A DNA stretch of 64,000 nt from Chitinophagaceae bacterium. Its GTDB lineage: Bacteria > Bacteroidota > Bacteroidia > Chitinophagales > Chitinophagaceae. The notes below the pieces were generated by a model, which saw nothing but the letters and a program-made list of their open reading frames with translations, was not told where the DNA came from and did not search any database. Where the stretch lies: contig JANINS010000003.1 in NCBI GenBank assembly GCA_024508725.1, forward strand, positions 682,001 through 746,000. Reading direction: 5' to 3'. Positions 38,621 through 43,280 of this stretch are shown here, piece by piece (within the stretch, counting starts at the first letter, position 1; each line of letters opens with the position of its first letter). The translations under genes were made by a program, and so were the position numbers.

Positions 38621-39472
38621 TTAATGCACCTGCCTGATAGCAAAATAAAAAAGAATGAATTTGTATATCAACCCTACTATAATGTTGTGCATTACCCAGA
38701 ATAAAACTGCAATTAAAACAGACTGCCAGATCTTTAAACTGTAAAACCTTCTTGCAGCTACAGAAACATAAAAGCACAAAACCGAATAGAGGATGATGCC
38801 TGTTATTCCATCATAAATAGGAAGGTAAGAACCACTGATCCATTTACATAAAAGCTGGAATATCGTTAATAAAAGTGGCAGAATCAAAAAACCCCAGAAC
38901 AGGTAAACAGAATTAATCTCTGCTGAAAAAACCATCTGGTCGAAAAAATATTTACGTTTTCTAAAGGTGAGCAGCCAAAAAAACAAAGCTGTAAATGGCA
39001 CAATGATAAACAAAAGAAATTTAGATAGCTTTTCACCTTTTTGATGAAATATCTTCTCCACTTCTGCATACGACAGATTGGTTGATCGCAACACTTCATT
39101 CACTTTACCTGTTGCGTATTCTCCATAAAAACGATTTGTCATGTGATACTGCAGTTTCATGTTTAGCCCTTCAAAAACAGGAAAGAGCAGGTATAAAACC
39201 ACCAGGAAAAAAAAGAAAGATATGGGTTTGAAATATGGCTTTCTAACACCGTGGGAATACATCCATGAAATTTTACCAGGCCTGGTAAAGATCGTTTTAA
39301 TGGTAGTAAACAATGTACCTTCGAAATGAGTGATAAAGTGGAATCCTTCTTCCAGAAAATGAAACACAGATTTATCGTGTTCATTATAAACTTTCTCACC
39401 ACAATTATTACAATATTTTCCCTGGAAATGGTTGTTGCAGTTCAGGCATGTATGCGTAGCATTCGCTTTCAT
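38621..39472 (-). CDS. DUF3667 domain membrane protein
   Basis: A 283-residue protein. The N-terminus holds a zinc-ribbon-like CxxC pair (CLNCNNHFQGKYCNNCGEKV). A cytoplasmic segment with FEGTLFTTIKTIFTRPGKISWMY follows; the conserved TRPG block defines DUF3667. About five hydrophobic helices come next. The function of this Bacteroidota family is not known. The start codon shares one base with the stop of the upstream GH3-like gene (TGATG), so the two are translationally coupled. Confidence 0.85.
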   Translation of the reverse strand: MKANATHTCLNCNNHFQGKYCNNCGEKVYNEHDKSVFHFLEEGFHFITHFEGTLFTTIKTIFTRPGKISWMYSHGVRKPYFKPISFFFFLVVLYLLFPVFEGLNMKLQYHMTNRFYGEYATGKVNEVLRSTNLSYAEVEKIFHQKGEKLSKFLLFIIVPFTALFFWLLTFRKRKYFFDQMVFSAEINSVYLFWGFLILPLLLTIFQLLCKWISGSYLPIYDGITGIILYSVLCFYVSVAARRFYSLKIWQSVLIAVLFWVMHNIIVGLIYKFILFYFAIRQVH

Positions 39473-40983
39473 CAGGCAGAAATAAATAAGAGTATCTCAT
39501 CAAGATACGTTCTTTCATTACAAAGTCTCGGCACTTTGTGTTGTCCACCAAGCTTTCCTTTACTTTTCAGCCAGGCATTAAATACACCTTTCGGTAAAGG
39601 ATGAACAACCGGCATTCGCAAAGCAATGTCTTTGGCTCTTTTTGCTTCGTAATCTCCGTTAACAGATTTCAATGCATCATCCAGTTCAAAAATGAAACGA
39701 TCGATGTCTTCAGGAGCTTTCTCAAACTCGATCAGCCATTCATGTGCTCCATTACTGTTATCACTAAAATAAACAGGGGCAGCAGAATAATCATTCACCA
39801 CAGCACCGGTTTTTTGCGATGCGATCGCAATTGCTTTATCGCTGTTATCAACGATCACTTCTTCACCAAATGCATTAATAAAGTGCTTCAAACGCCCACT
39901 CACTTTTACTTTGTATGGATCAGTTGAAACAAACTGAATCGTATCACCAACAAGATATCTCCACAATCCTCCATTGGTGCTGATTACAACGGCATAGTTC
40001 TTTCCAACTTCCACATCTCTTAAACCGATCGTTTGCGGATCATCTTTTCCATACTCTTCTGTTGGCATGAATTCGTAGAAAATTCCATGTTGCAGAAAGA
40101 GCAACATTCCATCCTCACCAGGATGTTGTTGTGCAGCAAAAAAACCTTCGCTGGCATTGTACATTTCCAGGTAGTTTACTCCACCACCGATCAGTTTTCT
40201 AAACTGTTCACGATAAGGCGTAAACGAAACACCACCATGCAGGTATAATTCCAGATCCGGCCATACTTCTTTCAAAGTTGATTTACCGGTGATCTCAAGT
40301 ATTCGTTTGATAAGAACCAATGTCCATGTAGGAACACCACTGATAGAAGTAACCACTTCATTAATGGTGGATTGAGCCAGCTTTTCGATCTTTACTTCCC
40401 AATCATCCAGCAAAGCAATCGAAAGCTCAGGAGTTCGTATCCATTCTGCCCAGAAAGGAGAATTCTGTAATAACACAGCACTTAGATCACCAAACTGAAT
40501 TTCTTCATTCACTTTATGTATCTGGTGACTTCCACCAATTACCAACCCTTTGCCGGTGAGCAGATCACTGTCGGGATTGTAATTATAGTACATGGTGAGT
40601 ACATCCTTGGAACCCTGGTAATGACAATCGTGCAGGCTTTCATCTGTGATAGGGATGAATTTTGCTTTGCTGCTGGTAGTACCACTGCTTTTTGCAAACC
40701 AATTCACAGGAGTGTTCCAGAGAAGATTCTCTTCACCATTCATCAATCGTTCAATGTACGGTTGCAACTGGTCGTATTCATGAATGGGAACGGCTTTCTT
40801 AAAGTCACGAACACGAAAAACATCTTTCATTCCATACTTACGACCGATCTCGGAATACTGACCATGGGTAATGAGGTCTTGCAACACTTCTCTTTGTGTT
40901 TGGATAGGATCATTTTTCCAATGCTCAATAGCACTGTACCTGAACCTGGCGAGTCGTGATATGGCTGGACTGAGAAATTTCAT
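39472..40983 (-). CDS. GH3-like acyl-adenylating enzyme
   Basis: A 503-residue protein of the GH3 auxin-responsive promoter family, adenylate-forming enzymes that activate a carboxylic acid and join it to an amine, usually an amino acid. Family signatures: NWFAKSSGTTSSKAKFIPIT (phosphate-binding loop), YLEMYNASEGFFAAQ, GLWRYLVGDTIQFVS and SGRLKHFINAFGEEV. The bacterial substrate is unknown. It is the first gene of a two-gene operon with the DUF3667 protein. A perfect 7-bp hairpin (TTTGCCG-ATGG-CGGCAAA, 40983-41000) touches its start codon. Confidence 0.9.
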   Translation of the reverse strand: MKFLSPAISRLARFRYSAIEHWKNDPIQTQREVLQDLITHGQYSEIGRKYGMKDVFRVRDFKKAVPIHEYDQLQPYIERLMNGEENLLWNTPVNWFAKSSGTTSSKAKFIPITDESLHDCHYQGSKDVLTMYYNYNPDSDLLTGKGLVIGGSHQIHKVNEEIQFGDLSAVLLQNSPFWAEWIRTPELSIALLDDWEVKIEKLAQSTINEVVTSISGVPTWTLVLIKRILEITGKSTLKEVWPDLELYLHGGVSFTPYREQFRKLIGGGVNYLEMYNASEGFFAAQQHPGEDGMLLFLQHGIFYEFMPTEEYGKDDPQTIGLRDVEVGKNYAVVISTNGGLWRYLVGDTIQFVSTDPYKVKVSGRLKHFINAFGEEVIVDNSDKAIAIASQKTGAVVNDYSAAPVYFSDNSNGAHEWLIEFEKAPEDIDRFIFELDDALKSVNGDYEAKRAKDIALRMPVVHPLPKGVFNAWLKSKGKLGGQHKVPRLCNERTYLDEILLFISA

Positions 40984-41031: not shown

Positions 41032-42258
41032 TTAAACGATAGAGCTAAACTCCGGATTTGAAATGATCGACTGGATGCTTTCTAAAATAGGTCTGCCTTT
41101 CAGTAGTGTATTCTTAAAAAGCTCTTCTCTTGCAATGTCTTCTGTGTTCAAGTTAATATATTCAGCATCTAATAGGGTTTCAGTTGGACCAGCTAAAATT
41201 TCACTAAAGAATATTCTGTTTAATTTCTCGCCTAAGTCTAAATCTCTGTAATCTGTAGCTAGAGTATTTAATCTTGGTAGATTTTTGATCTTACCATATT
41301 CTTCAACCCATTTTGCCAGGGCATTTGTTTTTTTTATAAAATCTGATTCAACAACATGCTCTTTTAGTCTCCGATGGTAATTGTTTGCGAGAACCGCATC
41401 CACATCAGCTATGTAATCGTGTATGAAGTTTAAAGTTCTTCTTTGAAGTTTATCATCATTAGATTCTTTTCCCATTTCCAGAATCCAATCCTTCCTTTTC
41501 AATTCAAAATTGGTTCCGAGGTATAATCTTCTTACCTGTTCATTGGCAGCCAATTCTTCTGCAGTTCCGTGGATGAATATCTTTCCGCCGATCAGCAAAT
41601 AAGCTCTGTCGCAAATAGAAAGTGTTTCGTTCACGTTGTGATCGGTGATCAAGATTCCAATGTTGCGGTATTTCAACTTCGCTACCACACTTTGAATATC
41701 TTCTACCGCTATCGGGTCCACACCAGCAAAAGGTTCATCGAGCAAAATAAATTTAGGATCAACAGCCAATGCCCTGGCAATCTCTGTTCTTCTTCTTTCA
41801 CCACCACTCAAACTATCGCCATTATTTTTTCTAACATGATGCAGGTTGAACTCATCCAGCAAAGCTTCTAATTTCAGCTGGCGTTCTTTCTTGCCCAGCT
41901 TTGTCATCTCTAAAACTGCCAGGATATTATCTTCCACCGTCAACTTTCTAAACACACTTGCCTCTTGTGGCAAATAACCAATACCCATTTGAGCTCTCTT
42001 GTACATGGGTAGTTTGGTGATATCTGTCTTATCAAGAAATACATATCCCTGGTCTGGTTTGATCAATCCTACCACCATATAAAAGGTGGTGGTTTTACCG
42101 GCTCCATTCGGACCAAGTAAACCAACAATCTCACCTTGTTTCACTTCAATAGAAACATCATTCACCACAGTTCGGCTACTGTATGTCTTGATCAGATTCT
42201 TTGTATGTATAGTTAAGTTCAAATCAGGCGTTTTAGCAAAAATAGGCTTCGGTTGCAT
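41032..42258 (-). CDS. lptB: LptB, LPS export ABC ATPase, with a C-terminal extension
   Basis: LptB powers extraction of lipopolysaccharide from the inner membrane. Residues ~15-260 are a complete LptB: Walker [10 protein letters not shown] (49-57), Q-loop [15 protein letters not shown], signature LSGGERRR (150-157), Walker [14 protein letters not shown] and H-loop H207 (ITDHNV). The usual protein stops near [11 protein letters not shown]. Here ~147 more residues follow (to 408), helical and charged, with no family that I recognise; the DNA of this part looks more A/T-rich. The ATG at 42256-42258 is chosen; a longer in-frame TTG start would overlap metF. It is divergent from metF. Confidence 0.88.
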
Positions 42259-42326
42259 ACCAGTTGGTGTGATATGGCTTCTTAACAAACAGTTTGGCTG
42301 TATATTGCACCAATTTTTAGCAAGCA

Positions 42327-43280
42327 ATGAAGGTTACTGATCACATTTCCCAGTCGAAAGAGACATTGATATCGTTTGAAGTATTACCCCCTTTGAAAGG
42401 TAAGACCATCAATTCTTTATACGATCACTTAGATCCTTTGATGGAGTTTAAACCATCCTGGATCAATGTTACCTACCATCGAAGCGAAACCATGTTTAAG
42501 AAAAGAGCAGATGGCAGCTTCGAAAAAGTAGAAGTGAGAAAACGTCCTGGTACAGTTGGTATTTGTGCTGCCATTATGAACCACTACGAGATCGATGCAG
42601 TGCCGCATTTTATTTGTGGCGGTTTCAATAAAAGAGAAACGGAAGATGCCCTGATCGATCTGAATTTCCTTGGGATTGATAATGTTTTGGTGTTGCGTGG
42701 TGATGCTGCTAAGAATGAAACTTTCTTTGAACCTGAACCAGGTGGTCACCGATATGCTTTGGATCTGCTTAAACAAGTTCAGGATCTGAATAACGGTTTG
42801 TATATTGATGATGATATCAGAGACGGTGGTAAAACCCAATTCTGCATTGGCGTTGCCGGGTATCCTGAAAAACATTTTGAAGCACCAAACAAAGAAACCG
42901 ACCTGATGCATCTGAAAGAAAAAGTGGATGCCGGTGGATGCTACATCATGACACAAATGTTTTTCGACAATAGCAAGTACTTCCAGTTTGTGGAAGATTG
43001 TCGTGCTGTTGGCATCAATGTGCCGATCATTCCGGGTTTAAAACCGATCACTACCAAAAAGCAATTATCAGTTCTGCCAAGAATATTTCATGTAGACATT
43101 CCAACTGATCTTTCTAACGAGATCCTGAAATGTAAAACAGATGCTGAGGTAGAACAGGTAGGCACACAATGGTTATTACAACAATCCAAAGAACTGAAGA
43201 AGGGTGGTGCTCCTGTACTTCACTATTACACTTTGGGAAAACCAAAGGTGATATGGAATGTGGTGAAGGAATTAGTATAG
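42327..43280 (+). CDS. metF: Methylenetetrahydrofolate reductase MetF
   Basis: Reduces 5,10-methylene-THF to 5-methyl-THF with FAD, supplying the methyl group for methionine synthesis. The 317 residues show the family start [13 protein letters not shown] with the catalytic glutamate (E18), then [45 protein letters not shown] and [15 protein letters not shown]. The ATG at 42327 fits the usual N-terminus. A 19-bp hairpin terminator follows at 43297-43346, shared with the convergent isomerase gene. Confidence 0.95.

Follow-up and report, generated by a model that had tools for sequence, protein, structure and literature searches.

MalK and Wzt are ABC ATPases with C-terminal regulatory domains. 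The same arrangement is described for FbpC and for MetN (MetNI; PMC7367683). For LptB, the ATPase of the LPS exporter, the C-terminus has been studied in E. coli, where the protein ends at residue 241 and where residues 230−241 are essential, among them Y234, L235, G236 and F239 (PMC6703430). A laboratory frameshift, lptB1, adds an extension of 34 residues and yields a partly functional LptB; its suppressors are either a stop codon that removes the extension or changes close to the ATP sites, and the authors tie changes in the CTD loop to dimerisation and turnover (PMC6703430). A natural extension is found in MlaF of the MlaFEDB phospholipid transporter, where about 25 C-terminal residues, largely an extended coil plus a single short helix, contact a partner and are proposed to aid dimerisation (PMC7367683).

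The window analysed here, a stretch of 64 000 nucleotides, comes from a Chitinophagaceae genome that comprises 8 contigs with a total of 3.88 Mb and is 99.99% complete. Its lptB gene (table 1) is a complete LptB that continues in frame into a C-terminal extension. The TIGR04406 LptB model scores 380.2 bits (cut-off 240) over residues 40−276 of the 431-residue open reading frame (ORF), while a second equivalog model, PRK10895, stays under its cut-off with 324.4 of 381 bits; beyond the TIGR04406 region, no library family scores over its own cut-off. The Walker A (GPNGAGKT), signature (LSGGE), ILLDEP and H-loop (DHNV) motifs all read as intact in the sequence, and the Y-L-G-x-x-F-x-L motif is present as YLGTNFEL at residues 246−253. 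The ATG at 42258 is the likelier start, giving a protein of 408 residues. One LptB is found in the genome at E ≤ 1e-60, together with two PF03739 proteins over the cut-off as LptF/LptG partners.

Table 1. Coordinates of lptB, its parts and its neighbours, as positions in the window.
Feature	Position	Strand	Basis or remark
GH3-family protein, downstream neighbour of lptB	39472..40983	minus	nearest NCBIfam model OlsH, below cut-off
lptB ORF	42327..41032	minus	431 aa from TTG at 42327, no interruption
lptB stop codon	41032..41034	minus	ORF reading
C-terminal extension proper, about 143 residues, without known domain	41035..41463	minus	domain searches and G282 relative
Short linker DWILEMGKE, common to tailless orthologues, with in-frame ATG at 41475	41464..41490	minus	orthologue comparison
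LptB C-terminal motif, equivalent of E. coli residues 230−241	41500..41535	minus	sequence
LptB ATPase core, residues 1−256 from ATG at 42258	41491..42258	minus	TIGR04406 score and motifs
Methylenetetrahydrofolate reductase, divergent upstream neighbour of lptB	42327..43280	plus	family match

Behind the core lie 152 further in-frame residues (41035−41490, minus strand), about 143 of which exceed the short tail of orthologues. A preliminary description, made from the sequence alone, had recognised a complete LptB ATPase with the frame running on, which the scores above bear out, and had put the extension at about 147 residues. That figure matches the 147 codons plus stop of 41032−41475, but the ATG at 41475 is no junction: the linker that holds it is the short tail common to tailless orthologues, so it is unlikely to be the start of a fused gene. 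Among the LptBs read, those without a long tail end 4−35 residues past the motif FELKRK, and in tailless orthologues where DWI comes next the short tail is DWIIEMGK or similar. In the one genome of the same genus that was compared (G001, 76% complete), LptB ends after MGRETGASTPR, followed by a stop codon. The supposed A/T-richness of the extension was correct (GC fraction 0.342, compared with 0.413 for the core) and is typical of tailed loci, since GC is lower in the tail than in the core in 31 of 36. The window tail is charged, as had also been proposed (20 K + R and 27 D + E in 152 residues), and has a maximal 19-residue hydropathy of 0.64; the helices proposed alongside appear with low confidence only, in a model of the full-length window protein that is unusable (pLDDT 40.9).

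The extension is not confined to this assembly. As recommended in the preliminary description, it was searched on its own: a 147-residue piece gave one match outside its own genome among 394 genomes of the family, at 29% identity and an E-value, calculated for one genome, of 1e-8. This match (L036) is the C-terminal tail of the LptB of genome G282, flanked by the same two neighbours as in the window, and the two tails stay grouped even when the linker is left out (E < 0.01 for 100 000 sequences). LptB is present in 372 of the 394 genomes. All LptB frames of at least 316 residues were read, and shorter ones in part, with a tail counted when more than 60 residues followed YLGxxFxL. Tails of 95−167 residues past this motif occur in at least 30 of the 372 genomes, from 19 genera; this is a lower bound, because the survey may have passed over tails of about 60−70 residues and a few LptBs run off the end of their contig. 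In a 31st tailed LptB (L127, from G347), a run of N in the assembly breaks the tail. The genomes surveyed are species representatives, many of them drafts, and 16 of the 19 tail-bearing genera also have sampled species without a long tail; genus g108, for example, has four tailed and three tailless genomes. Orthologues within a genus can differ, as the window LptB and that of G001 do, and tails recur across the family.

In a sample of the class, 2 of 140 non-family genomes with LptB have a long tail, neither being alike to the family tails. The LptB of G609, from another family of the class (L147, G609:C15:106271-110996), ends in a tail that is unrelated, contains two CxxC pairs and appears zinc-ribbon-like (Pfam Zn_Ribbon_TF 0.0034, below cut-off), and the LptB of G645 (L154), of the same genus, lacks such a tail. 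The LptB of G577, from yet another family (L150, G577:C1:325048-329755), has a tail of about 110 residues unlike those of the family.

A tail profile was iterated on sequences trimmed of the shared linker, at E < 0.01 for 100 000 sequences. It gathers 20 of 30 tails, the best of 9000 shuffled decoys reaching 0.21 in any round. A cluster of five tails from genus g5 and the single tail L074 join this main family by profile comparison, with scores of 31.8 and 31.6; shuffling the g5 alignment 40 times gave nothing above 16.3, and 109 pieces of the window did not exceed 15.6. The same comparison did not tie L073 to the family, nor L090 on its own. Over the 394 family genomes, the 20-row profile matches 21 places at E ≤ 1.3e-9, all of them at the end of lptB: 20 are the rows of the profile itself, and the one addition lies directly behind the lptB of G347, beyond the stretch of N. 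A further seven matches, weaker (6.8e-4 to 7.5e-3) and elsewhere in these genomes, were taken as noise. Across 198 genomes of the order, the profile reached five new genomes of a second family, all five matches being LptB C-terminal tails, and there was one weak match (G496, 1.6e-4) off LptB. The genome_contigs collection yielded six profile loci, all LptB tails, five already among the above and one (L138) new. The tail domain is recurrent and, across the genomes searched, occurs on LptB alone.

The window lptB is absent from the 20-row profile matches at E ≤ 0.01, the sole match in its genome (0.0054) lying on another contig. In profile−profile comparison with the family, the window and G282 tails together score 21.3, and 24.3 with L090 added; the corresponding maxima in 40 column shuffles are 17.8 and 16.2, and 109 unrelated single-sequence pieces reach at most 15.6. 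The single window sequence scores 18.9 against the 20-row profile and 16.5 against the 31-row profile, where one of the 109 background pieces is higher (19.1). As these scores are weak, though mostly above the controls, membership of the window tail in the LptB tail family, as a divergent member, is probable but unproven.

The preliminary description could not assign the extension, and we had no more success: by sequence, nothing above chance or cut-off was found for the tail in Pfam, NCBIfam, PHROGs, PADLOC or the PDB, the window tail alone giving Pfam values below cut-off for DUF3047 (0.0057) and FliD_C (0.08). With respect to a phage or plasmid origin, the window tail gave a single match in either collection (E 0.9 and 7), neither above chance. 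The tail of a relative (L138), modelled with six sequences, is predicted to be helical, forming a five-helix bundle (pLDDT 80.7, pTM 0.71). Foldseek with this model returned nothing under E 0.99, and a second structural comparison yielded a list of helical bundles of many kinds, with DUF1798/YppE-like bundles (2huj, which we take to belong with this group, 2hfi, 2im8 and 2ets) at or near the top (Z 7.5−9.2). The score of 9.2 compares with 8.6 for a designed bundle, and unrelated proteins also tied; the likeness of the modelled tail to DUF1798/YppE is perhaps only that of a common arrangement. Two tails, L083 (G189) and L084 (G237), have a strongly hydrophobic membrane-like segment with maximal 19-residue hydropathies of 2.38 and 2.66, the next highest among 36 tails being 1.58. 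Such a segment might place these tails at the membrane or within it.

Set beside the known systems, the window LptB conserves YLGxxFxL of the E. coli protein, and its extra residues begin right behind this motif; whereas the lptB1 extension is an impairing laboratory product, the tails of the window and the family are natural. They share with MlaF the status of natural C-terminal additions on ATPases of envelope lipid transporters, at 95−167 rather than about 25 residues, and we claim no homology. The principle is also that of MetN and FbpC, with a regulatory domain behind the nucleotide-binding domain, but the LptB tail has no Pfam regulatory-domain match and the exporter is LPS-specific. The titles and abstracts of the literature searched, which comprised open-licence papers only, contained no description of an LptB tail domain.

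The downstream GH3-family neighbour scores 408.9 bits against the OlsH lyso-ornithine lipid synthetase model, whose cut-off is 620, and is thus no member by that model. In 12 of 17 loci, counting 7 of 9 with a tail and 5 of 8 without, the nearest long ORF behind lptB is a GH3 gene; the window genome and G001 both show this order. No other same-strand ORF of at least 120 residues lies between lptB and the GH3 gene in those five tailless loci. The presence of GH3 next to lptB, with or without a tail, hints at a lipid link.

To gauge selection, 11 of 12 intended pairs of tailed genes were computed; eight are saturated in the tail, some of them in the core too, and three have finite dS in both parts. 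In these three, the dN/dS of the tail is 0.19 (L137/L138), 0.06 (L095/L096) and 0.20 (L141/L142), with core values of 0.01, 0.02 and 0.01, respectively; the ratios are rough, because tail dS exceeds 1 in two of the three pairs. Tail dN is approximately 6−23 times that of the ATPase core. The low ratios mean that the tails of these relatives are constrained as protein. The extension is a real in-frame domain on LptB, selected at the protein level in relatives. Between the window tail and its only relative, that of G282, synonymous sites are saturated.

The core tree has 102 rows and is weakly resolved; on it, tail presence requires 17 parsimony changes with the gapped G347 row (L127) scored tailless and 18 with it corrected, compared with about 30 for shuffled labels; supported branches alone force at least three. 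Core and tail identity are weakly correlated over 31 tails, the window's left out (rho 0.14, a value that 39 of 999 permutations reached). Simple vertical descent of a regulator would lead one to expect otherwise, and judging from the sequences the pattern could reflect an ancient tail that was lost many times, unequal evolutionary rates, or tails passed from one lineage to another. A correlated change in the ATPase was considered as well: T for N at the residue after the H-loop went with tails (Fisher 1.6e-7, the best of 420 tests), a correlation that is not supported, because only four independent pairs fall on supported branches and these mostly show no difference. At the positions of the E. 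coli suppressors in the core, tailed and tailless rows do not differ, T45 varying in both.

What, then, is the extension? That an assembly or sequencing error removed a stop codon has a probability close to nil, given the completeness of the genome and the homologous in-frame tail of the independent genome G282; the comparison indicates that the tail is very probably no artefact. The preliminary description had offered, as an alternative, a lost stop codon and the fusion of an unrelated small gene, which would be private to the lineage. The short tail of G001, the only same-genus genome compared, fits such an event, yet the G282 tail is homologous and lies in the same gene neighbourhood, and the five tailless loci with GH3 behind lptB have no intervening same-strand ORF of at least 120 residues. 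Nor was a free-standing relative found in the 394 family genomes or in pattern scans of genome_contigs and viral_contigs, which used short peptide patterns and so reach close relatives only; the only relative is itself an LptB tail. On these comparisons the tail is not a private fusion, and we regard that origin as highly improbable. A more serious contender is an acquired domain of little function that is now being lost, with weak selection acting only against harmful folding. The very fast divergence of the tail would suit this, as would its absence from most genomes and from part of 16 of the 19 tail-bearing genera, and the 17−18 changes on the weakly resolved tree. We nevertheless find it doubtful: three pairs show purifying selection (dN/dS 0.06−0.20), tails are in frame in independent genomes, and the main-family profile shows no decayed tail in the 394 genomes apart from the assembly gap in G347, although other tail types would escape that profile.

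The effects of the C-terminus in E. coli and the MlaF extension make regulation and docking the leading ideas. As a docking domain, the tail would leave catalysis unaltered and recruit a cytoplasmic partner, such as an enzyme of LPS or lipid synthesis or a localisation factor, or anchor LptB to the membrane surface. We hold this possible but tentative. It would account for the membrane-like segment of two tails (L083 and L084), and the best model for the usual downstream GH3 neighbour is a lipid synthetase, below cut-off; on the other hand, 34 of 36 tails, the window's among them, are without such a strong hydrophobic segment, and the GH3 neighbour is also present in five of eight tailless loci. 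We prefer, at a probability of about 0.5, to see the tail as a genuine accessory LptB domain, small and helical, that would be attached immediately after the essential C-terminal loop, at the cytoplasmic side of the LPS exporter, and would set a lineage-specific control. With the tail starting just behind the loop that is essential in E. coli, an effect on the LptB dimer cycle would be the most direct expectation. Because tail-bearing genera often include species without it, the tail is dispensable, and its fast divergence argues for lineage-specific control rather than a part in the core mechanism. The preliminary description had thought a regulatory domain on LptB unusual; a recurrent domain does exist, while its regulatory role is one that we infer, along with its place relative to the dimer, its effect on ATPase activity, any partner and the window tail acting like the tails of its relatives. 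It is unlikely, though conceivable, that the tails form an exchangeable, fast-diversifying control cassette, with one tail type replacing another, disappearing and returning, possibly in response to inhibitors or phages that act on the exporter.

The window LptB, a well-known ATPase, thus bears an accessory domain that is patchily distributed and evolves fast, and that we have not found described. According to PMC6703430, the end of E. coli LptB controls dimer opening and turnover and added residues are harmful; here a whole domain occupies that spot, on the sole LptB found in the window genome. Being patchy and fast-changing in related bacteria, the tail probably tunes or steers the pump. Tailed and tailless species of one genus form natural pairs for asking about post-translational regulation of LPS export, and the exporter is an antibiotic target. 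If the tails were indeed exchangeable control elements, one bacterial group would have made a regulated LPS pump.
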